From Nitrosomonas sp. (GTDB lineage Bacteria > Pseudomonadota > Gammaproteobacteria > Burkholderiales > Nitrosomonadaceae), in assembly GCF_022842015.1 (NCBI RefSeq), contig NZ_JALHQJ010000004.1:1-64000 (forward strand): a stretch of 64,000 nt of DNA, written 5' to 3'. Position 1 is the first letter of the stretch. Each line of letters begins with the position of its first letter. Positions 35,172 through 47,535 of this stretch are shown here, piece by piece. The position numbers and the translations under genes were made by a program. A model generated the notes under the pieces. It was not told where the DNA came from. It was given only the letters and a program-made list of their open reading frames with translations, and did not search any database.

Positions 35172-36743
35172 ATGGTCGATGAAGAGAAGTTAAAAATATT
35201 GTTGATTGAGTATTCTGCAAAGGATGCTGCTGCGGTTCTGAAAATACTATCACACAGTGGTTTTCAAACAGACTATCTGTGCGTTGCTACGGCTGACGAT
35301 TTGCAAGAGGCTCTGAGGCTCCAGGATTGGAATGTGATTCTATCTGATTATGCTTCACCGCGACTTAATGCGTGCGACGTAATCAAATTGATAAAAAATC
35401 AAGGATTGGATATACCTTTAATCATCGTTTCCAGTGATATCGGTGAAGAAGCGGCTGAAAATATCATGGCTTTAGGCGCATATGATTTTATGATGAAGGC
35501 CAATCTTGCTAGATTGGTGCCGGTAATCAGACGTAGTTTGCGTGAAGTAAAGAATTATCAGCGTCTTATTACTGCTCAAGCTGCGCTACAAAAAAGTGAA
35601 GCGCTTTTTCAAGCTATTACATCTAATCTTCCCGGAGTCGTGTTTCAGTTTCAGTTGGGTAAGAATAATAAAGCTAGTTTCCCATATGTCAGTGATGCAA
35701 GCGAAACACTACTGGGGCTATCACCCCAGAAGCTAATGAGCAGCCCAGAACTTTTCCCGGAATTAATTCTGCCTGAGGACAAAGAATCTTATCGTCAACT
35801 TATGATGACATCTGCCGAGCAACTTTCAACCTGGAACTGGGAGGGCTGTATTCAAGTAAAAGGAGACAGTGATATTAAATGGGTTAGTTTACGTGCAACG
35901 CCCAGAAGAATGCTTGATGGAGCGATGTTGTGGGATGGCATTATGATAAACATTACCCGCAATAAGCTGGCTGAGCGCGAGATTGCACGTTCGCGTGAAC
36001 AGCTGGCCGAGCTATCCTCATATTTGCAGAAAGTTAAAGAACAGGAGCGAGCCCGAATTGCACGCGAAATTCACGATGACATCGGTGGGACATTAACTGC
36101 CATTAAATGTGAGTTACTTCCTTGTATGGATAAGACAGCAAGAAAGCTCGAATTTTATCAACAGAAAGCGAAATCTATTGAATCACTAGTGGATCGTGTA
36201 ATCGATAGTACTAGACGGATTTCGCTTGATTTGCGCCCTGGAATTCTTGATTGTGGGATCGTTGCCGCTGTGCAATGGCAAGCAAAAGAATTTAGTGATC
36301 GTACCGGTATTGTTTGCAGAGTATCATGCGACAATGATGAAATATCTTTAGATTCGGATTTGGCCATAGCGATTTTTCGGGTATTCCAGGAAACGCTGAC
36401 AAATATTTCCAAACATGCCAATGCATCACGCATTCAGGTAAAGCTTGTCGAATTGAAAGGCTTGATTTTACTTGATGTGATGGATAATGGGTGCGGCATT
36501 ACTGAAATTGATATGGACAAGCAAGATTCATTTGGAATACGGGGAATGCGTGAACGATGCCTGCAATTAAAGGGAAATTTTCATATTTCTGGAGAATCAG
36601 AAAAAGGAACTAAGGTGACCATTTTGATACCGACTGGGGATCCAGAATATGATTCTGAGCAAGCATGTGATTTAAATAATAAGTTTAGAGAGTTCCCGCA
36701 CTCGGAGCCCATTAAGAAGGGAAAGCAAATTTCTCGGCTTTAA
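35172..36743 (+). CDS. Receiver-PAS-histidine kinase (NarX/DegS type)
   Basis: 523 residues, soluble. Receiver domain about 8-125 (KILLIEY, phospho-acceptor candidate Asp59 in ILSDYASP, Lys in DFMMKANL); the second acidic residue is kept only as Glu-Tyr, so it is partly degenerate. A PAS domain with PAC tail follows at about 145-265. HisKA_3 dimerisation helix with His301 (IAREIHDDIGGT), then an HATPase domain with the N box TLTNISKHANASR, DNGCGI and GIRGMRERC. The next gene, 16 bp on, is its NarL-type partner. It lies divergent from flagellin, but the controlled genes are not evident. Confidence 0.88.
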   Translation: MVDEEKLKILLIEYSAKDAAAVLKILSHSGFQTDYLCVATADDLQEALRLQDWNVILSDYASPRLNACDVIKLIKNQGLDIPLIIVSSDIGEEAAENIMALGAYDFMMKANLARLVPVIRRSLREVKNYQRLITAQAALQKSEALFQAITSNLPGVVFQFQLGKNNKASFPYVSDASETLLGLSPQKLMSSPELFPELILPEDKESYRQLMMTSAEQLSTWNWEGCIQVKGDSDIKWVSLRATPRRMLDGAMLWDGIMINITRNKLAEREIARSREQLAELSSYLQKVKEQERARIAREIHDDIGGTLTAIKCELLPCMDKTARKLEFYQQKAKSIESLVDRVIDSTRRISLDLRPGILDCGIVAAVQWQAKEFSDRTGIVCRVSCDNDEISLDSDLAIAIFRVFQETLTNISKHANASRIQVKLVELKGLILLDVMDNGCGITEIDMDKQDSFGIRGMRERCLQLKGNFHISGESEKGTKVTILIPTGDPEYDSEQACDLNNKFREFPHSEPIKKGKQISRL

Positions 36744-36759
36744 ATAGCTGGAGGTATAC

Positions 36760-37392
36760 ATGATTAGTGTAATGATTGCCGATGATCATGCAATTGTTCG
36801 TCAAGGTTTGAAACAGATACTCAGTGAAACTGACGATATTAAGGTGACTGGGGAGGCAGAAACGGGTTTTCAAGCAATCAAAATTGCACGGCAACAAGAC
36901 TTCAATGTCATGTTGTTGGACATATCTCTACCCGATAGAAATGGTATTGAGATTTTGAAGCAGATAAAGAAAGATAGGCCAAATTTGTCAGTATTAATGC
37001 TTAGTATGCACAATGAACACGAGTTTGCTATTCGTGCATTAAAAGCGGGCGCATCGGGTTATCTAAATAAACAAAGCGCACCTGCGCAACTGGTAGTGGC
37101 TATTCGGCAAGTCGCGGCGGGAGATAAGTATGTTAGCCCTGTTGTCGCACAAGAACTTGCTAATATTATTAACTCTGATATCGATAAACCCCTTCATGCT
37201 ACTTTGTCCGATCGAGAGTATCAAACATTGTGTTTTATTGCAGCCGGTAAAACTTTGTCTGAAATATCGTCTGAGATGTTTCTGAGTCCTAAAACAGTGA
37301 GTGTTTATCGTGCGCGATTATTGGAGAAACTCAAACTGACAAACAATTCAGAGATAATTCGCTATGCAATAAAGAATAAATTGGTAGATTGA
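36760..37392 (+). CDS. NarL/FixJ-type response regulator
   Basis: 210 residues: receiver with Asp54 (MLLDISLPDRNG), Asp8-Asp9 and Lys in GYLNKQSAP, and a C-terminal LuxR helix-turn-helix (SDREYQTLCFIAAGKTLSEI, LSPKTVSVYRARLLEKL). Forms a two-component system with the upstream kinase. DNA targets are unknown. A GGAG site precedes the ATG. Its position between the flagellin and GGDEF genes suggests a role in motility or lifestyle switching, which is inference. Confidence 0.93.
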   Translation: MISVMIADDHAIVRQGLKQILSETDDIKVTGEAETGFQAIKIARQQDFNVMLLDISLPDRNGIEILKQIKKDRPNLSVLMLSMHNEHEFAIRALKAGASGYLNKQSAPAQLVVAIRQVAAGDKYVSPVVAQELANIINSDIDKPLHATLSDREYQTLCFIAAGKTLSEISSEMFLSPKTVSVYRARLLEKLKLTNNSEIIRYAIKNKLVD

Positions 37393-37501
37393 TTTCCTAG
37401 TTAAAGATGTTACTGCAATTAGTTTAATTTTTTTTCGAATGAGTCGATATTTTTTAGTCCCAGGATTACTGATTCATTATGTTTAATTTTGACCGATTAA
37501 T

Positions 37502-39205
37502 ATGAAACAATTTAAAGATTCTAATCCACTTACTATTGCTCGCGAAACGCTGCGGCAACTTGCCTCGCAAAGAATTCAGCCAACTCCAGAAAATTACCAC
37601 AAACTGTATCTTCAGATTTCTGGAAATTCAGAAACTAGCATCGACCCTTTAATTCCGGCATCAAGGAATCAAGAGTTGAGCCAAGCTAATGAATTAATTG
37701 ATTCCACAGCAGTTTGGGGAGGCACGATCGAGGCATTGTTGAAACATTTGGAGAACAAGCAAGGCAGGCTGACAATTGCGAAAAAAAGAGACGGTGTTAA
37801 TCGAGTGCTTACTAAGTTTTCAAAAGATTCAAATCAATTGCACATCAAGCTGAAGGCATTGATCGATTCTTGGGGAATGTTAGCGCCCACTATTCAAGAA
37901 TCATCCGAGGATGTGCAAGTAAAGAGTTCTTTGTTGCAAGTTGATTTAATACCACAAGACTCTCGAACATCGCAAGTCGTTTTAGAACAGAATCTTACCT
38001 TTGGGCATTTTGCAGATCAACTATTGGAGTTAATGTCTCAGATATTAGAGCATGTGGTCGCTCGACAAATTGAAGATATTGTTCTAAATGAAGAAGCAAA
38101 AATACTGGCAAACCAAGTGCGTAAGATTCAAAATAAATCAGACGTAGAAGGATTTACGGTTGATTTTCAGAATTTTTGCAGAAAATTCGATGCATATGGG
38201 GAAAATGGACTTAAGTTGAAGAAAGGCTTACTGAAATTACTCAATATGTTTATGGATAGTACTGGTGAGTTGTTAGCCGAGGATCAATGGGTTGGAGTGC
38301 GGCTTAATAAACTGCGTGACACTATATCCAGACCCTTAGATCTTCAGGTCATAGAACAAGCTGAGCATTATATAGAGGAGATAGCACAAAGGCAGGAAAT
38401 AATCAGACATAACCTGAATGAGGCCAAGACGACGTTGAAGCTCATGGTGACTTCTCTGATTACAAATATCGAAGAGTTGAGTGATACTACGGGAGAGTAT
38501 CAGGTTAAGCTGGAGCAATATTCGCAAAGAATTAGTAATACTGATGATATTAAAGAACTTAATCAATTGCTTGGATTGATTGTGGAAGAAACCAAGCAGA
38601 TGCAAACAAGCGCATTAAATTATCGTCGTGATTTTCTTGCTGCTCGTGCAGAGGTCAGTTTTGCACAGAATAAAATCGACCAGCTTGAAACCAAGTTGGT
38701 TGAGATGGGTGAGAAAGTTCATGAAGATCATTTGACCGGGATACTTAACCGGCGTGGCTTGGATACTGCCTTTGAGCGAGAAGCCTCTCGTTCGATACGT
38801 CATGAGCATCCATTATGTTATGCACTGCTGGATATCGATAATTTCAAACAACTCAATGATACGCACGGCCATAAAGTAGGTGATGATGCCTTGAAATACT
38901 TGGTGGAGTCTGTTAAGGATACGACGCGCCCAGAAGATATCGTGTCACGATATGGCGGTGAAGAATTTGTGATTTTGCTTCCTAATACTAAGCTAGAGGA
39001 AGCGGTTCAGATAGTATCTAGAATACGACGGAATTTAACTAAGAAATTTTTTCTGCATGAAAATAAGCGCTTGCTAATTACATTTAGTGCGGGTGTTGCC
39101 CGGCTCCGGCCAGAAGAATCACAAGAAAGTGTCTTTAAGCGTGCGGATGAAGCTTTGTATCGTGCAAAAAAAGGTGGTAAGAATCTAATTCTCGAGGCAG
39201 AATGA
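37502..39205 (+). CDS. Diguanylate cyclase with long helical N-terminal region
   Basis: 567 residues. The first ~45 (PLTIARETLRQLASQRIQPT, PENYHKLY) form a module found in many proteobacterial GGDEF proteins; residues ~50-400 are helical with coiled-coil-like runs (QNKIDQLETKLVEMGEK just before the domain) and have no transmembrane helix. GGDEF domain ~405-565: DHLTGILNRRGLD, LLDIDNFKQLND, RPED (RxxD) and GGEEF at 485-489. Its catalytic domain is a close paralogue of the next gene's. Confidence 0.9.
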   Translation: MKQFKDSNPLTIARETLRQLASQRIQPTPENYHKLYLQISGNSETSIDPLIPASRNQELSQANELIDSTAVWGGTIEALLKHLENKQGRLTIAKKRDGVNRVLTKFSKDSNQLHIKLKALIDSWGMLAPTIQESSEDVQVKSSLLQVDLIPQDSRTSQVVLEQNLTFGHFADQLLELMSQILEHVVARQIEDIVLNEEAKILANQVRKIQNKSDVEGFTVDFQNFCRKFDAYGENGLKLKKGLLKLLNMFMDSTGELLAEDQWVGVRLNKLRDTISRPLDLQVIEQAEHYIEEIAQRQEIIRHNLNEAKTTLKLMVTSLITNIEELSDTTGEYQVKLEQYSQRISNTDDIKELNQLLGLIVEETKQMQTSALNYRRDFLAARAEVSFAQNKIDQLETKLVEMGEKVHEDHLTGILNRRGLDTAFEREASRSIRHEHPLCYALLDIDNFKQLNDTHGHKVGDDALKYLVESVKDTTRPEDIVSRYGGEEFVILLPNTKLEEAVQIVSRIRRNLTKKFFLHENKRLLITFSAGVARLRPEESQESVFKRADEALYRAKKGGKNLILEAE

Positions 39206-39576
39206 ATTGCTTAGCCATTGTTAAGTCCCGATTCCCCATTAGGAAAACCTATTGAATATACTAGAGTTTCAATAAATCATCATCACGTATGTTTGAAATT
39301 CTTTATTCCCAATCAGTTTGATTAAGATTGCTTGTGTTATTGGTTTCTCGTCATTGGCAAGTTTCTAATGGGAAATCTGAGTTAATTAGCACATAAGCTG
39401 TTCTTATGGATAAATAGTACCGATTTCCCTTTTTATTCTTTAAATCCGTTCTGGATGAGTTCTGTTAACTTTGCAGACATGGCAGTCCATACCAGGATGG
39501 GTTCTCCTTCGCAATCCAACGAATTTCCCCTACTGGCTTAATCTGCATCTAATGTTGTCAATTTAGGAGGATAGCA
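39206..39576. other. Gap between paralogous cyclase genes
   Basis: No gene, riboswitch-like structure or clear hairpin terminator was seen. The strong AGGAGG ribosome site of the following gene is at its 3' edge (39565-39570). Confidence 0.4.
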
Positions 39577-40377
39577 ATGCAAGAGGCCATTAATCATAAA
39601 CAAAAAAGAATGTTGAGATTGGTTAAATCGACTAAAGCTATTAGAAGTGAGCACAAACCTATGATTGATTCTGAAGATTATTATAAGCAAGTAGAACGTT
39701 ACGCTGATCAAATCCGTAAAACACGTAATGCTGATGAGATCATTCGAATTCTGGATGTCGTGTTATCTGAGACTCGAGGGTTGAAATTTAGTGATGAGGT
39801 TTTTGCTGCGCAGGAGCAGGTAAAACGGGCAGAACGAAAGATTGAATTATTGAAAGGTGAATTGGAACAACTGCGGGGGCTTGTGCAGACAGATCAAATG
39901 ACGGGTGCATTCAATCGTCGTGGTCTTGATGAAATTTTTAAACGTGAGGCAGCGCGTGCCGACAGAAATGCACAATCGTTGGGGGTGGTTCTGATTGATC
40001 TAGATAATTTTAAGAAAATTAATGACAATTTTGGCCATCAATATGGGGATAGTGTACTAATAAACTTAGTCACTGTTGCTAAGGAAACATTACGACCTTC
40101 CGATATCGTTGCACGTTTTGGCGGAGAGGAGTTTGTGATTTTATTGCCCGAAGTTGAGCTTGAAGATGCATTAACTATCATTCAGCGGTTACAAAATAAT
40201 TTGGGAAAAAATTTTTCTTTACAAATCGATAATCAATCAATGCCTGTAACTTTTAGTGCTGGCGTTGCACTTCGTTCGTTTGGAGAGCATCAAAATTCAG
40301 TTATAAGCCGTGCTGATAAAGCACTTTATCAGGCAAAACGAGCTGGGAAGAATCGGGCAATTCCTGCCTTGACCTAA
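39577..40377 (+). CDS. Diguanylate cyclase, short soluble
   Basis: 266 residues: a basic start, a helical region (about 30-105; DYYKQVERYADQIRKTRN, KRAERKIELLKGELEQLRG) and a GGDEF domain with DQMTGAFNRRGLDE, LIDLDNFKKINDNFGH, RPSD (RxxD) and GGEEF at 182-186. The catalytic domain shares RRGLD, VILLP, TFSAGVA and RADKALYQAK with the preceding gene, and both have a coiled coil in front of it. The N-terminus is replaced. AGGAGG precedes the ATG. Confidence 0.92.
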   Translation: MQEAINHKQKRMLRLVKSTKAIRSEHKPMIDSEDYYKQVERYADQIRKTRNADEIIRILDVVLSETRGLKFSDEVFAAQEQVKRAERKIELLKGELEQLRGLVQTDQMTGAFNRRGLDEIFKREAARADRNAQSLGVVLIDLDNFKKINDNFGHQYGDSVLINLVTVAKETLRPSDIVARFGGEEFVILLPEVELEDALTIIQRLQNNLGKNFSLQIDNQSMPVTFSAGVALRSFGEHQNSVISRADKALYQAKRAGKNRAIPALT

Positions 40378-40543
40378 CTGAGAACTTGGGAAGTATATGA
40401 GGAACAAATCATAATTCAATATATTAATCCCTGTGAAATACGTTTGTTTGTGATGAATAAAACTAGTGGAGCAAGTGGAGCAAACAATGGAACCGGTGTG
40501 TTTAAACGTTTCTTTGTATCGTTTGGTTAATGTGAGGGAATAA

Positions 40544-41782
40544 ATGGAAGGTTTTTTTCTTGGGCGACAGCCTATTCTAGATCGTAATCAAAATTTGGTG
40601 GCCTTTGAATTACTTTTTAGGCAAGAAGAATATGATGAAAAAGCAAGTATTATTAATGACTTATCTGCGTCCGCAAATGTCATCATCAATGCATACTGTC
40701 AATTGGGTATTCAGAATGTATTAGGCAAGCAAAGAGGTTTTATCAATGCGGATCCAGAATTAGTTATGAGCGACATTATTAGTCTGTTGCCAAGCAAACA
40801 TGTTGTTCTCGAATTAAAAGAGACAGTAGCTGTGACGGCAGATTTTATGCGGCGATGTAGCGAGTTAAAACAGAAAGGGTATCAATTTGCACTAGATAGT
40901 GTGGTCGCGATGAATGAGAAAGTCGAGCAATTGCTACCATTGGTCAGCGTAGTCAAGGTAAATGTACTTGAACTTGAGAAAAATGAGCTTTCTAAACTGG
41001 TAACTGAGTTGAATCGTTGGCCAGTATTGCTTTTAGCGCTAAAAGTGGAAACTCGCGAACAAGAAAGCAATTGCATGCAACTTGGATTTCAGATGTTTCA
41101 GGGGTTCTATTTTGCAAAACCTGAGGTGTTGTCGGTTAAGCGAGCTGACCCAGGAAAATTGTCGCTATTAAAATTACTGACGTTAGTAATGGGTGATGGT
41201 GACATTGAAGAAATAGAGAAGGAGTTTAAGCATCAACCTGGGCTCAGTTATAACTTGATGCGCATGGTGAATTCTGTGGCAAGTGGATTGCCACAAAAAA
41301 TCAACTCAATCAAACATGCGATTATGATAATGGGACGAAAACAGTTGCAAAGGTGGGTGCAACTGTTGCTTTATACAGCTGATCAGTCTAATGAGAATAT
41401 GTCTAATGCATTAATGCAAACTGCTGCTGCACGGGGTAAATTAATGGAATTGATTGCAACAGCGGAGCGTCCTCACGATAAGAATCATCAAGAAAGAGCA
41501 TTTATGGTAGGAATATTATCTTTGCTCAATGTGCTACTTGGTATTGAGATGCAGCAGATTGTCGACAAGTTGGGAATTCCAGATGATATGAGTCAGGCAT
41601 TATTAAACCGGGAAGGACGATTGGGACAAGAATTGAAGTTAATAGAGGCTAATGAGAGAGGGGAAGTTGCTGTCATTCAATTGATATTGGTTGAACTTGG
41701 TTTTCTGAGTTTGAGTGAATTGGCGGATATTGAAATGCAAGCAATTGGATGGACTAATCGGATCGGTGAAGTTGCCAATTGA
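40544..41782 (+). CDS. EAL-like plus HDOD signalling protein (YuxH/CdgJ type)
   Basis: 412 residues. EAL-like part ~1-205: LGRQPILDRNQNLVAFELLF opens with ELL in place of EAL, and the metal and catalytic set is incomplete (ALDSV where active enzymes have DDFG; KVET where AEGVE is expected). QGFYFAKP is kept. HDOD domain ~210-400 (QPGLSYNLMRMVNSVASG, INSIKHAIMIMGRKQLQRWV). Family members such as Vibrio CdgJ affect motility without clear phosphodiesterase activity. So c-di-GMP hydrolysis is unlikely; binding remains possible. Confidence 0.9.
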   Translation: MEGFFLGRQPILDRNQNLVAFELLFRQEEYDEKASIINDLSASANVIINAYCQLGIQNVLGKQRGFINADPELVMSDIISLLPSKHVVLELKETVAVTADFMRRCSELKQKGYQFALDSVVAMNEKVEQLLPLVSVVKVNVLELEKNELSKLVTELNRWPVLLLALKVETREQESNCMQLGFQMFQGFYFAKPEVLSVKRADPGKLSLLKLLTLVMGDGDIEEIEKEFKHQPGLSYNLMRMVNSVASGLPQKINSIKHAIMIMGRKQLQRWVQLLLYTADQSNENMSNALMQTAAARGKLMELIATAERPHDKNHQERAFMVGILSLLNVLLGIEMQQIVDKLGIPDDMSQALLNREGRLGQELKLIEANERGEVAVIQLILVELGFLSLSELADIEMQAIGWTNRIGEVAN

Positions 41783-42176: not shown

Positions 42177-42764
42177 ATGATGACTGAGCTGCAATCAGCT
42201 AGCGACAAGCTTGATAATAAAGCAGAAGATAAATTGGTGCTGGAAGATAAGGATGGGGTTATATGCAATAACACTGCCAGCGAGTATCTTATAGGCATTA
42301 AGGGAGATTTAAACCAAGCGGAAAGATTAGTTAGTGACGCAGCCAACAATTTAGTATGTAACTTCAGATATATAAGTAAATTAACAGGATCTCATCACGA
42401 GATGGTTCTGGCGATTGAAAGAATGGTTACTCCTGAAGAAAGACATTCTATTAATGAATTATTGGAAAAACAAATGTTAATTGCTAATCGAATCGAACAA
42501 GAGTTAGAGGCGGTAATCACTTCCTTACAATTCGGTGATTTAGTTGCACAATTACTCGCGCATACCGCGCGTCAAGTGGAAATGTTGAGCGATGAGTTGC
42601 GGGGTATTGATCGACAAGGTAGTTTGCAGGGAAAAGCTGAGAAAAGAGCCTTGAATTCAACACATTCAAGTATTAATAAGGCAGTTAATGAAGTAAAAAA
42701 TAAGGGTAAAAAGAAGCCAGTAGTGCAGCAAGGAATGAAAATGGGCGATATTGAGCTTTTTTAG
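42177..42764 (+). CDS. CheZ-like chemotaxis protein of unknown function
   Basis: 195 residues, helical. The helix ITSLQFGDLVAQLLAHT (about 115-130) has Asp121 and Gln125 in the DxxxQ spacing used by CheZ (DLTGQ) to dephosphorylate CheY. The preceding ~55 residues (SISELL-like, NRIEQELEAV) would form the partner helix. The end is a charged tail finishing GDIELF, nearly the same as the CheD C-terminus (GEIELF). It opens the operon unknown-cheY-cheA-cheR-cheD-cheB with a good ribosome site (GAGGAAAAG). Similar LQFxDxxxQLL helices also occur in receptor-linked proteins, so phosphatase activity is a hypothesis. Confidence 0.65.
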   Translation: MMTELQSASDKLDNKAEDKLVLEDKDGVICNNTASEYLIGIKGDLNQAERLVSDAANNLVCNFRYISKLTGSHHEMVLAIERMVTPEERHSINELLEKQMLIANRIEQELEAVITSLQFGDLVAQLLAHTARQVEMLSDELRGIDRQGSLQGKAEKRALNSTHSSINKAVNEVKNKGKKKPVVQQGMKMGDIELF

Positions 42765-42828: not shown

Positions 42829-43194
42829 ATGGCCAAGACAATACTTGCAGTGGATGATTCTGCTTCAATTCGGCAGATGGTGGCTTTTACGCTTAAAGGC
42901 GCAGGTTATGAGGTCATTGAAGCAGTTGATGGTCAAGATGCTTTCGATAAGGCGAGTCATTATCAAGTTAATCTAATATTAACTGACATCAATATGCCAC
43001 GCATGGATGGATTAAAGCTACTTGAGTTGCTGCGAAAATTGGCTCAATACAAAAATATTCCTATCTTGATACTGACCACAGAATCCGGTGATGAAATGAA
43101 AGCAAAAGGTAGAGCGGCAGGGGCAACTGGCTGGCTAGTGAAACCGTTTGATCCCAAACGATTATTGGAAGTAATCGGTAAAGTTATTAGTTAG
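42829..43194 (+). CDS. CheY-like receiver protein
   Basis: 121-residue single receiver with Asp53 (LTDINMPRMDG), acidic pair Asp9-Asp10, Thr in ILTTES and Lys in WLVKPFDP. It is the receiver encoded with cheA in betaproteobacterial operons and differs clearly from the motor CheY at 2020-2427, which is more like the E. coli protein. It may act as phosphate sink or regulator of the array. Preceded by AAAGGAGCTAAGTA. Confidence 0.93.
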   Translation: MAKTILAVDDSASIRQMVAFTLKGAGYEVIEAVDGQDAFDKASHYQVNLILTDINMPRMDGLKLLELLRKLAQYKNIPILILTTESGDEMKAKGRAAGATGWLVKPFDPKRLLEVIGKVIS

Positions 43195-43331: not shown

Positions 43332-45515
43332 ATGAGTACAGATCTCGAGCAATTTTATGAAATATTTTTTGAGGAATCCTCAGAGTTACTTGCGGACATG
43401 GAGGCATGCTTACTTAGGCTCGATGTAAATTCGCCGGATTTGGAAGACTTAAACGCTATATTTCGTGCTGCTCATTCTATTAAGGGTGGAGCGGGTACAT
43501 TTGGTTTTACAGATATGACGGAGATGACGCATATGTTGGAAACACTGCTTGATAGATTGCGGAAGGGCGAGCTTAAAGTACGTAGCGAGATGATCGATGC
43601 TTTTTTAGGGGCTGGAGATGTTATCAAAGCACAGCTGGCGGGACATCGTGGAGAAGGGCAAGCTGATCCTGCTGCTGCTGAAGCAGTTTGCGAGGAACTT
43701 AAGAAATTAAGTGAGAACGCGCAGGAGGCTGTATCGGTAGAAGATATAAAAGTAATTGTTTATGACGATGAAGCCAAATCAGCGTCGGAGGGGACTGATG
43801 CAGAGTCAATGGCAGAAAAAATTTCTCAAGAAAATGCTGTCACACGACTTAGTTTTAGTATCGAATTTTCCAGTGCAGATTTGAGTAGTGCCACAATTGA
43901 GAATTTACTCGCTAATTTGCAGGGAATGGGTAATCTGGAAAATCTTACGCCTGTAAATGCGGAGGAGCGTTATAAATTAGTATTGACTACAAGTAGTAGC
44001 GAAGAAGATGTTTGGGAAACTTTGGTATTTGTGGTTGACCCCACAAGCCTTGAAATTAAAGCAGTTACATTTGACAGTGCTCGAGTTAAGGCAACAGAAA
44101 TTGAAACCCTTAATGGATTAGTTAGTAATACAGAATTTTTAGCAGAAGAAGATACGCTAAAGTATAGGATGCCACCTGCTCCAGGTTATGGGTTTTTCCC
44201 TGGGGCACCCGCTGCACCGAAGGATGTAGAAGACTCAGATATTGGTTTTGACCGGACACAGTTGCCGGATACAGGTAGTAGCAAAAATGAATCTCAAGTC
44301 ATCAATAAATCTTCCGGGAAAGCTAATATCGCGGCGGCTAGTGAAACTTCATCTATCAGAGTCAGCATAGAAAAAGTTGATCAAATGATTAATTTAGTCG
44401 GAGAGCTGGTCATTACTCAAGCAATGCTTGCTCAGACAGCTTCTCAGTATGATCCGGTACTGTTCGAGAAGTTGTACAGCGGAATGAGTCAGTTAGAGCG
44501 AAATACACGAGATTTGCAAGAATCTGTGATGTCAATCCGTATGATGCCAATCAGCTTTGTATTTAGCCGATATCCGCGAGTTGTTCGTGATTTGGCTGCG
44601 AAACTGAATAAGCGTGTGGAGTTGAGGACTGTTGGTGAGAATACAGAACTTGATAAAGGGTTAATTGAGAAAATTGCTGATCCTTTAACACACTTAGTCA
44701 GAAATAGCCTGGATCACGGTGTAGAAGTAGCTGAAAAACGTGTGGCTGCTGGTAAGCCAGCACAGGGCACAATAACCCTGCGAGCTTTTCACCAGGGAGG
44801 GAGTATTGTTATCGAGGTTAGTGATGATGGCGCAGGACTAAATAGAGGGAAAATTCTTGCCAAAGCAAGAGAACGTGGATTACCTGTACATGATGCAATG
44901 ACAGATCAAGAAGTCTGGTTGTTGATTTTTGAGGCTGGTTTTTCAACAGCAGATCAGGTTACAGACGTGTCAGGTCGAGGTGTTGGCATGGATGTGGTGA
45001 AACGCAATATACAGAGCATGGGGGGGCGTATCGATATTGAATCGACGCTTGGATCTGGTACGCGCATATCCATTCGTTTGCCACTAACGCTGGCCATACT
45101 TGATGGATTATCTGTGGTTGTTGGAGACCAAATGTTTATTGTGCCATTAAATTATATAACCGAGTCATTGCAACCGATGGCCACTGATATTAAAACAGTG
45201 AGTGGGAAAGGGCGCGTGGTACAAGTGAGAGGTGAATATCTCCCAGTGATTGCATTGCATGAGTTTTTCAATTTGCGTCCTAGCGTAACAGAGATTCATA
45301 AAGGAATTCTTGTCATTCTTGAGGCTGAAGGACATAAAGCAGCGTTATTTGTGGATGACCTGGTTGGACAGCATCAGGTCGTTATCAAAAGCCTTGAGAG
45401 TAATTACCGCAGAGTTCAGGGAGCTTCGGGCGCGACTATTATGGGTGATGGCAAAGTTGCGCTTATTCTTGATACCGCAGCTTTAGTAATGGCATCACAG
45501 CAAGAGCTCGTATAG
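43332..45515 (+). CDS. cheA: CheA chemotaxis histidine kinase
   Basis: 727 residues. HPt domain with phospho-His48 (RAAHSIKGGAGTFGF), a P2-like and acidic linker region (about 130-320, with the Pro-rich APGYGFFPGAPAAP), dimerisation helices (QMINLVGELVITQAML), ATPase domain (N box HLVRNSLDHGVE, VSDDGAGL, GRGVGMDVV) and C-terminal CheW-like P5. It transfers phosphate to CheY and CheB. The gene that should follow, cheW, is only a relic (45600-45776), so CheW for this kinase must come from elsewhere. Confidence 0.97.
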   Translation: MSTDLEQFYEIFFEESSELLADMEACLLRLDVNSPDLEDLNAIFRAAHSIKGGAGTFGFTDMTEMTHMLETLLDRLRKGELKVRSEMIDAFLGAGDVIKAQLAGHRGEGQADPAAAEAVCEELKKLSENAQEAVSVEDIKVIVYDDEAKSASEGTDAESMAEKISQENAVTRLSFSIEFSSADLSSATIENLLANLQGMGNLENLTPVNAEERYKLVLTTSSSEEDVWETLVFVVDPTSLEIKAVTFDSARVKATEIETLNGLVSNTEFLAEEDTLKYRMPPAPGYGFFPGAPAAPKDVEDSDIGFDRTQLPDTGSSKNESQVINKSSGKANIAAASETSSIRVSIEKVDQMINLVGELVITQAMLAQTASQYDPVLFEKLYSGMSQLERNTRDLQESVMSIRMMPISFVFSRYPRVVRDLAAKLNKRVELRTVGENTELDKGLIEKIADPLTHLVRNSLDHGVEVAEKRVAAGKPAQGTITLRAFHQGGSIVIEVSDDGAGLNRGKILAKARERGLPVHDAMTDQEVWLLIFEAGFSTADQVTDVSGRGVGMDVVKRNIQSMGGRIDIESTLGSGTRISIRLPLTLAILDGLSVVVGDQMFIVPLNYITESLQPMATDIKTVSGKGRVVQVRGEYLPVIALHEFFNLRPSVTEIHKGILVILEAEGHKAALFVDDLVGQHQVVIKSLESNYRRVQGASGATIMGDGKVALILDTAALVMASQQELV

Positions 45516-45599
45516 GAAATTCATTACTTATTTATGATGCGCGGCTTATCGGTATTTTATGTCAGAACAGGTATGAACAGTGGAAAACTTGAAGTTTGG

Positions 45600-45776
45600 G
45601 AGATGTTGATTATAGTCGGTTTACTGGGTATCTAAAGTGTGGCAGAACATGTAATGTGATCAGTTTGGAAGCGGATCAGCTGCGCCCTTACCCTAGATTG
45701 GGTTATAGAGACTGATGCCGAATACATTGTTGGCTTGGGAATGAATGATGAGGTAGTGTACCGGACTAATCAATAA
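45600..45776 (+). pseudogene. cheW: Decayed cheW fragment
   Basis: Three pieces in order match the C-terminal half of CheW. IIVGLLGI-stop-SVAEHVM (45609-45656) corresponds to the VGLLVDSVSEVV region. SLEADQLRPYPRLG (45662-45703, next frame) corresponds to the LEPEQIRPAPEFG region. ETDAEYIVGLGMNDE (45708-45752, back in the first frame) corresponds to the TEYLTGLG region. So there are at least two frameshifts and an internal stop. Only 84 bp separate it from the cheA stop, so the ~100 N-terminal codons are deleted. It sits exactly where an intact cheW is expected. Confidence 0.75.
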
Positions 45777-46055
45777 CTTTGTTATTTAAGGTGATTTTCT
45801 GTTTACTTGAAATTAAGGAGAATCCCAAAATCTATTTTTTGAAAAAATTCTTTTTATATTCTACCAATACAAGTGCCAGGCTTGTCAACGAGCATAGTAG
45901 ATGCGCCAGTTTGGTGTTTATGATCTCGAGGGATTAAGGAAAAGTATATTAGTTCGATATATGAGGAAGTGAAGGAATTGAATAAGAAGATATTGATACT
46001 GTAAACGGTTATCGCAAAATGGCATTTTATTTTATTTTGTTTGTGGATGGGAATT
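45777..46055 (+). other. Gap with possible relic of a receptor gene start
   Basis: TTAAGGAGAATCCCAAA followed by ATC and codons reading YFLKKFFLYSTNTSARLV resembles the leader and N-terminus of a methyl-accepting protein whose ATG has mutated. The frame ends 35 codons later. This is a weak match, supported mainly by its position between the cheW relic and cheR. Confidence 0.25.
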
Positions 46056-46923: not shown

Positions 46924-47535
46924 ATGGTTGAGATCCTTGATGAGCAAATTGCGAGCAATTTATATTTTGACAAAAGCTTTAACCATCAAGCAGTCAAATT
47001 GTTACCAGGTGAATACTATGTCACTGATAAAGACATGCTCTTGGTAACTGTGCTCGGCTCATGTGTAGCAGCTTGTATACGTGATTGTTATAGCGGTATC
47101 GGTGGTATGAATCATTTTATGCTTCCAGATGGTGGTGCGGACATAGGTAGTCCGTTAAATGCTTCAGCTCGTTATGGTACGTATGCAATGGAAATATTGA
47201 TCAACCAGCTACTCAAATTGGGCGCTCGCAGATGTAACCTCGAGGCTAAAGTATTCGGTGGTGGTAATGTTTTGGATGGGTTGACGGTTGTAAATATCGG
47301 GCAGAGGAATGCAGATTTTGTTTTGAAGTTTTTACAAACCGAAAAAATAAAAGTTGTAGCGCAAGATTTAGTTGATATATTTCCTCGTAAGGTCTATTTC
47401 TTTCCAAAAAACAATAAGGTAATGGTAAAGAAATTACGGGATATTCGTAACGTGACTATTTCCCAGCGTGAGAAAGATTATAGTCAACGTTTGCGCAAGG
47501 TTGAAAGTGGTGGAGAAATAGAATTATTTTCTTAG
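46924..47535 (+). CDS. cheD: CheD receptor glutamine deamidase
   Basis: 203 residues. Catalytic Cys47 ([12 protein letters not shown]), His64 ([12 protein letters not shown]) and a conserved Thr/Gly loop; [11 protein letters not shown] is also typical. CheD deamidates receptor Gln residues and in some species stimulates CheC. The C-terminal tail after ~180 is charged and ends GGEIELF, closely matching the end of the CheZ-like protein at 42177-42764. cheR-cheD-cheB are in tandem and probably co-translated. Confidence 0.95.

Follow-up and report, generated by a model that had tools for sequence, protein, structure and literature searches.

A CheZ-like protein encoded ahead of cheY and cheA in Nitrosomonas and its relatives, with a probable docking tail that recurs on CheD

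The gene that opens the cheY-cheA operon of a Nitrosomonas sp., referred to here as X, encodes a CheZ-like protein that is conserved and has gone unrecognised. Its probable docking tail is common to CheD, and its likely client is the single-domain receiver CheY1. The window, meaning the whole stretch of 64,000 nucleotides that was analysed, holds the following features.

42177–42764, + strand: gene X, an ORF of 195 aa, a CheZ-like, hairpin-less member of the X family.
42270–42425, + strand: first long helix of X, residues 32–83, as predicted by the AlphaFold2 model and alignment columns.
42432–42626, + strand: second long helix of X, residues 86–150, as predicted by the AlphaFold2 model; it bears the DxxxQ motif.
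42528–42551, + strand: CheZ-like DxxxQ site of X, Q118-F119-G-D121-L-V-A-Q125, from its invariance among homologues and its HHalign/HMM register with CheZ FQDLTxQ.
42717–42761, + strand: C-terminal tail of X, PVVQQGMKMGDIELF, the proposed docking peptide, from family conservation and a core, GxIELF, common to CheD.
42829–43194, + strand: CheY1, a single-domain receiver (Pfam Response_reg, 2.4e-27), the proposed substrate and tail partner of X.
43332–45515, + strand: CheA, the kinase of the X operon (Pfam/NCBIfam).
46924–47535, + strand: CheD (Pfam/NCBIfam), which ends in GGEIELFS and has the same tail core as X (47512–47529).
1229–1987, − strand: ordinary CheZ (Pfam CheZ, 3.7e-71), with FQDLTGQ and a DDLLASLGF end.
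2020–2427, − strand: second CheY, adjoining CheZ (ORF; cheYz query) and presumably the motor CheY.

X is followed on the same strand by CheY1, CheA, CheR, CheD and CheB. A preliminary description of this DNA had reported Asp121 and Gln125 in LQFGDLVAQLL, a CheY-like receiver directly downstream and a normal CheZ elsewhere in the genome, and all of this holds. D121 (codon at 42537–42539) and Q125 (codon at 42549–42551) both lie within SLQFGDLVAQLL, as within TSLQFGDLVAQLL, of the plus-strand frame; the receiver adjoins X and is succeeded by CheA; and the ordinary CheZ, which carries AQDFQDLTGQ, is on the minus strand, the plus strand at 1229–1987 having no open frame. The best Pfam match of X is at chance level (E 0.75), and searches of NCBIfam, PHROGs and PDB sequences gave no match.

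Two features of the surroundings may be mentioned. The spacer between cheA and cheR (45516–46040) contains neither cheW nor mcp, genes that lie at this position in several Nitrosomonas relatives and in many other loci, and it may be a deletion scar. Before X, positions 35172–41782 encode a histidine kinase, a response regulator, two GGDEF proteins and an EAL-HDOD-like protein; in 20 of 23 Nitrosomonas loci (L109–L131) the EAL gene is also labelled at a place before X.

A search with the single protein matched 58 of 125 genomes of its family. With a profile of 22 relatives, matches were obtained at E <= 0.01 in 177 of 399 genomes of the order, Burkholderiales in GTDB (152 of 346 good genomes). 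A profile of 61 sequences, searched at E <= 1e-4 against 369 genomes of the class, matched 100, partly through other proteins. A second match in the window's own genome (L002, E 0.03) was rejected as a relative, as it reads as a GGDEF protein. In a tree of 101 rows, those nearest the window are Nitrosomonas MAGs, followed by N. ureae and N. supralitoralis.

Gene order was read from 80 named loci, the best 80 of 365 relatives from a scan of named genomes; these were chosen on the motif itself and are therefore left out of the D and Q conservation counts given below. They include Nitrosomonas, Methylophilaceae, Oxalobacteraceae, Rhodocyclaceae, Roseateles and relatives, and Thiobacillus, together with Oceanospirillum and Moraxellaceae among the gammaproteobacteria. 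A cheY follows X in 76 of these best 80 (counting L184, where it is inside a longer frame). The exceptions are L188, whose stretch ends 214 bases past X, and L148, L151 and L149; the genomes of L148 and L151 possess CheY1 at 75% and 63% identity, respectively, and none was found at E <= 1e-25 in that of L149. In 25 of the 80 loci, motB directly precedes X, and the fullest (L135 and L153) read motA-motB-X-cheY-cheA-cheW-mcp-cheR-cheD-cheB-cheY-cheZ. Given this linkage to cheY and these full operons, X is a regular, unannotated gene of the cheY-cheA operon that occurs alongside true cheZ. The wide distribution, the receptor form and the shared tail described below are all points absent from the preliminary description.

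Among the open-access papers listed by our literature searches, none deals with the X protein or the GxIELF tail. A Comamonas che cluster of similar content is classed as F7 (PMC6391922), and a report on Laribacter names the gene directly before cheY2-cheA2 merely as a “chemotaxis sensory transducer” (PMC3180692). Judged by its place, the latter is probably a receptor form of X.

On its own, a D-x-x-x-Q in one sequence would count for little, but the pair is invariant among the homologues of X. Protein and profile searches, run with no motif pattern, found 120 homologues, one of which is ended by a contig end before the site; D and Q were each present in 119 of the 119 that cover it, the aligning profile having been built from motif-selected rows and hence carrying a mild bias. 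Both residues also occur in 20 of 20 lower-scoring matches retrieved from the order-wide profile search. The F that precedes the D is kept in 118 of the 119, the remaining one having Y, while positions nearby vary: at 120, G, Q and E predominate (46, 42 and 26 in the 120-homologue set). X thus shares with CheZ a D-x-x-x-Q of catalytic type on a predicted helix. An AxxFQ motif directly before DxxxQ is given as a CheZ feature (PMC7750401). X departs from this motif: at its A position most homologues have S or A (71 and 30 of 120), and the window X itself has S for A and G for Q.

An HMM-HMM comparison with CheZ, proposed in the preliminary description, was run with HHalign and placed the motif in register when the X alignment was compared to 41 CheZ (probability 36%, P 3.9e-4). 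Against 10 CheZ the values were 23% and 9e-4, and an alignment of 40 ordinary MCPs gave P 0.35. The 5893 ORFs of the loci include 41 CheZ, labelled as such by length and a pattern of the CheZ motif. When a profile of the motif region was searched against these ORFs, CheZ made up 24 of the first 28 non-family matches (best E 4.5e-4), and two others of the first nine were receptors in which this motif recurs. Masking nine motif columns left CheZ only weakly enriched, with 9 among the top 46 and a best E of 0.15. The family profile, run on one whole genome, matched a true CheZ (FQDLTSQ, end DDLLSSLGF) at E 1.6e-5, with DxxxQ in register over 116 positions. Curated CheZ cut-offs were not reached: the window X has no Pfam or NCBIfam CheZ match up to E 1, and was not filed under CheZ for this reason, while X relatives and related receptors scored 14.7–21.2 bits against Pfam CheZ, for which the cut-off is 30.7.

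By these profile comparisons, CheZ proteins are the nearest non-family proteins to X, the similarity being mostly the motif itself. X most likely works like CheZ, and its descent from CheZ is plausible; since nearly all of the similarity is in nine motif columns, convergence is possible as well, DxxxQ being present in other phosphatases too. Other receptors of the class, at L103 and L097, carry LQFQDITRQ or MQFQDISRQ after the MCP hairpin and weakly match the CheZ profile (E 3e-4 and 8e-4). At L234 (genome G380), a divergent X that was missed by the 22-relative profile lies before cheY, with MQYQDITHQ and a DVEPF end.

The AlphaFold2 model of the X monomer, made with 61 sequences, predicts that helices 32–83 and 86–150 form a hairpin, followed by a helix at 153–176 and a loose tail, with D121 and Q125 in mid-helix (mean pLDDT 71, which is middling; pTM 0.58). 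Conserved residues of the first helix are L45, Q47, L51, A55, L59 and F63. The predicted long hairpin resembles that of CheZ, but such hairpins are common. Lack of a CheZ-like fold had been named beforehand as grounds for refuting the assignment; a hairpin of so common a kind, and the absence of CheZ among the structural matches listed, count neither for nor against it. The Foldseek and VIA-align 2 matches listed comprise only generic helical hairpins and receptors. Foldseek ranks a model of YfmS, a soluble receptor, with CheW first, and its other listed matches include a Thermotoga receptor; every one of them has E >= 0.2.

Part of the family consists of receptors. Among the best 80 of 365 relatives, 19 loci encode a receptor form, namely 17 labelled as such and two more, L151 and L167, in which the hairpin sequence departs a little, and a full MCP hairpin is present in 28 of the 101 rows of the tree alignment. 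For instance, the protein of L164 matches Pfam MCPsignal at 4.1e-29. Receptor forms are ~390 aa or more. They begin with a hydrophobic segment, apparently of membrane helices, and continue with the N-terminal helix, the MCP hairpin, the LQFQD-x-x-x-Q helix and the same tail. The window X reads as the same protein minus the hairpin and the membrane part. A structure model of the receptor form (A4, 17 rows) contains long helices only and is too weak to show detail (pLDDT 67, pTM 0.44). On the tree, made by a quick method, gain and loss of the hairpin takes 6 parsimony changes, of which well-supported branches force only 1.

Because many X proteins are receptors, the function of D and Q might lie in helix packing or in signalling, and X could be a receptor remnant or scaffold: a stalk without its hairpin, with a structural DxxxQ, whose tail binds CheY1 and holds it at the array or off the motor. 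The full MCP hairpin found between the same two helices in those 19 of the best 80 loci, and YfmS with CheW as the first Foldseek match among those listed, are consistent with this reading, which is nonetheless unlikely. D and Q (119/119) are more constant than the hydrophobic core (A55 in 112 and L59 in 114 of 120), they survive where the hairpin is absent, and together with the preceding F they match a known catalytic pair. The preliminary description had offered a role as a receptor-array component; the MCP-domain proteins in part of the family agree with it, but the window form has no MCP signalling hairpin by Pfam. Its other suggestion, a second phosphatase for the adjoining receiver, is the best-supported reading, in view of the invariant motif, CheZ as nearest relative, the linkage to cheY and the CheD-tail data, and as an interpretation it is partly supported.

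The C-terminal tail of X has the consensus PVxQxxMxxGDIELF. Scored in the loci as a terminal [IVLM][DE][LIVMF]F, no more than one residue being allowed after it, it was found in 79 of 80 X proteins from the best 80 of 365 relatives (62 of 63 labelled hairpin-less and 17 of 17 labelled receptor forms), the sole exception being a prematurely ended frame. In the same loci it was also found in 29 of 32 CheD; two of the other three are ended by the stretch end, and the third reads GDIDLFVPE. No such tail was found in the 72 mcp, 81 cheY, 75 cheA, 59 cheB, 35 cheR, 58 cheW, 18 cheYz and 7 cheZ ORFs of these loci, and the conserved peptide of X differs from that of CheZ itself. The tail core is encoded at four places in the window's whole genome, and only in X and CheD does it end a long frame; the other two sites are inside a 524-codon frame reading as IMP dehydrogenase and in a 14-codon frame. 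Internal tails occur as well: at L227 and L229 (two genomes of family f31), CheD has PRIELF followed by ~20 residues, and these loci have a diverged cheY before cheA and no X.

X and CheD occur together in 172 genomes, X alone in 5 (one of which, G295, shows a piece of CheD), CheD alone in 45, and neither in 177, a co-occurrence that could be a mere operon effect. The CheD tail was hence counted where X is lacking, in 37 of the 45 genomes that have CheD and no X match. The 37 retained have a CheD like the window's (181 bits or more); the eight left out (G132, G180, G200, G286, G292, G324, G403 and G500) are at <180 bits against it, and G500 has a NIELF end and CheY1 at 54%. Both the bit threshold and the tail rule ([IVA][DE]LF, <=2 residues from the end) were fixed after the tails had been seen. 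The CheD tail was present in 13 of 13 X-less genomes with CheY1 at >= 60% identity, and in 2 of 18 in which CheY1 was not found at E <= 1e-30 (p 5e-7). A group with CheY1 at 47–56% identity was counted separately and has the tail in 2 of 6, or 2 of 7 with G201; G380, where the divergent X is present, and G501 keep it and five do not. Adding the weak X matches G016 and G201 gives 13/13 vs 2/19 (p 3e-7), and one vote per family and state gives 9/9 vs 2/10 (p 7e-4).

The same relation is seen within one genus. All four of its genomes with X and CheY1 have a CheD that ends in Gx[IV]DLF, and all six with neither have lost this end; in the three of these six whose stretch before cheA was read, what looks like flgK and flgL stands in place of cheY1. 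An eleventh genome of the genus, G201, has a weak X match, CheY at 50% and no CheD tail. Counter-examples exist, namely G215, in which X and CheY1 are present with a tail-less CheD, and G182 and G175, in which CheD has the tail and CheY1 was not found (G175 is 84% complete). Because the tail is kept with a close CheY1 and mostly absent without one, X being lacking in both groups, the CheD tail appears to follow CheY1 and not X, and X was rejected as the tail partner. We infer that the partner would be CheY1, although genomes without it may differ in other genes too.

A methylation enzyme or an array protein is a quite improbable alternative to CheY1 as the target of the GxIELF tail; the CheY1 link would then be a by-product of gene-block loss. 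The receptor pentapeptide does bind CheR, and the I-x-x-F spacing of the tail is like that of W-x-x-F, in which many MCPs of these loci end. However, CheD bears the tail and is a non-receptor, its tail is kept in all 13 genomes that have lost X and have a close CheY1, and, wherever the stretch extends that far, cheA, cheW, cheR, cheB and receptor genes remain in the tail-less members of the genus compared above.

It is moderately probable that X is a CheZ-like phosphatase specific for CheY1, with a GxIELF tail that docks CheY1, and that CheD docks likewise. We infer the phosphatase activity, the dimer, the binding and the feedback from sequence. The two long helices of X would form the hairpin, and a dimer would probably be a four-helix bundle, from which D121 and Q125 on the second helix could reach the active site of phospho-CheY1. 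In CheZ catalysis, the acid contacts a lysine of the receiver and the glutamine positions the attacking water; in X, the acid would make the same contact with the receiver lysine, and the glutamine would place the water. Beyond a linker, the PVxQxxMxxGDIELF peptide would act as a tether for CheY1, like the C-terminal peptide of CheZ for CheY. Since CheD has the same GxIELF end, phospho-CheY1 could hold both X and CheD, and in holding CheD it would link adaptation with kinase output, a part comparable to the one that CheC plays for CheD in Bacillus. E. coli presumably has neither cheY1 nor cheD, and the CheD search of control genomes agrees with the latter, giving no match in E. coli.

A wider reading is tentative and falls short of probable: X, CheY1 and CheD may constitute an undescribed feedback module, in which the phosphatase (either a free protein or part of a receptor) and the receptor deamidase CheD grip phospho-CheY1 by a common docking peptide. 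One receiver would then drain phosphate, report kinase activity to CheD and replace CheC.

The CheS gene of Sinorhizobium meliloti precedes a sink-type cheY1 and cheA, the same place as that of X. In Comamonas, CheY1 is phosphorylated by CheA and loses its phosphate fast, and its deletion only partly reduces chemotaxis, because of which a sink role has been suggested (PMC6391922). That X is like CheS, which binds CheA and CheY1 and raises CheY1 turnover (PMC8429497), and joins the two to speed phosphate draining through a CheY1 sink with no hydrolysis of its own is the most doubtful of these readings, for while the gene order, the binding by CheS and the behaviour of Comamonas CheY1 agree with it, it leaves the invariant DxxxQ pair without a reason.

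A second family of similar design occurs in gammaproteobacteria. The class search retrieved 15 short-frame matches, of which 13 form this other family (L328–L339 and L341), one is a CheZ and one an X-like protein. The 13 are 180–216 aa long, all have QFYD-x-x-x-Q, and 12 have ends such as DDIELF, EVELF or DIEFF. Their neighbours include cheY (L328), cheA (L330) and cheR-cheD-cheB (L329, L336). Seven of the 13, as well as the X-like protein, were compared to Pfam and NCBIfam with no convincing match. On the wider reading given above, the recurrence of site and tail in this family suggests that a docking peptide on phosphatase and CheD would be a widespread principle.

Among known systems, CheZ (PF04344, NF041271, PRK11166) is comparable in design: it likewise has F-x-D-x-x-x-Q on the second hairpin helix, followed by a linker and by a conserved C-terminal peptide that closes with F, and is encoded beside a cheY. 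Unlike CheZ, X falls below the CheZ cut-offs in every protein scanned, has a tail of GDIELF as against DDLLxSLGF, and belongs to a family with an MCP hairpin in part of its members; it also occurs together with true CheZ, in the genome of the window as well as in operons like that of L135. Part of the X family is like MCPs (PF00015) in having a full hairpin between two conserved helices, whereas the window X has no hairpin and ends in GxIELF instead of WxxF. CheC/CheX/FliY and the CheC-CheD pair are set beside X for its proposed role, CheC of Bacillus being a CheY phosphatase linked to CheD through phospho-CheY (PMC3513319); X differs in having DxxxQ in a helical hairpin and not the CheC site, and its link to CheD would run via a shared docking peptide, unlike direct CheC-CheD binding. 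CheS differs from the proposal for X in that it acts by binding CheA. CheD (PF03975) shares with X the C-terminal GxIELF core and the operon; no resemblance was noticed outside the tail, and CheD is a receptor deamidase.

Flagellar chemotaxis is the best-studied form of bacterial signalling, and many betaproteobacterial versions of it have CheD and a second CheY of unclear use. If the proposal is true, a CheY1 phosphatase that shares its docking tail with CheD would explain both, with one peptide, one receiver and two clients, and receptor-embedded X would amount to a chemoreceptor with its own CheY phosphatase site.
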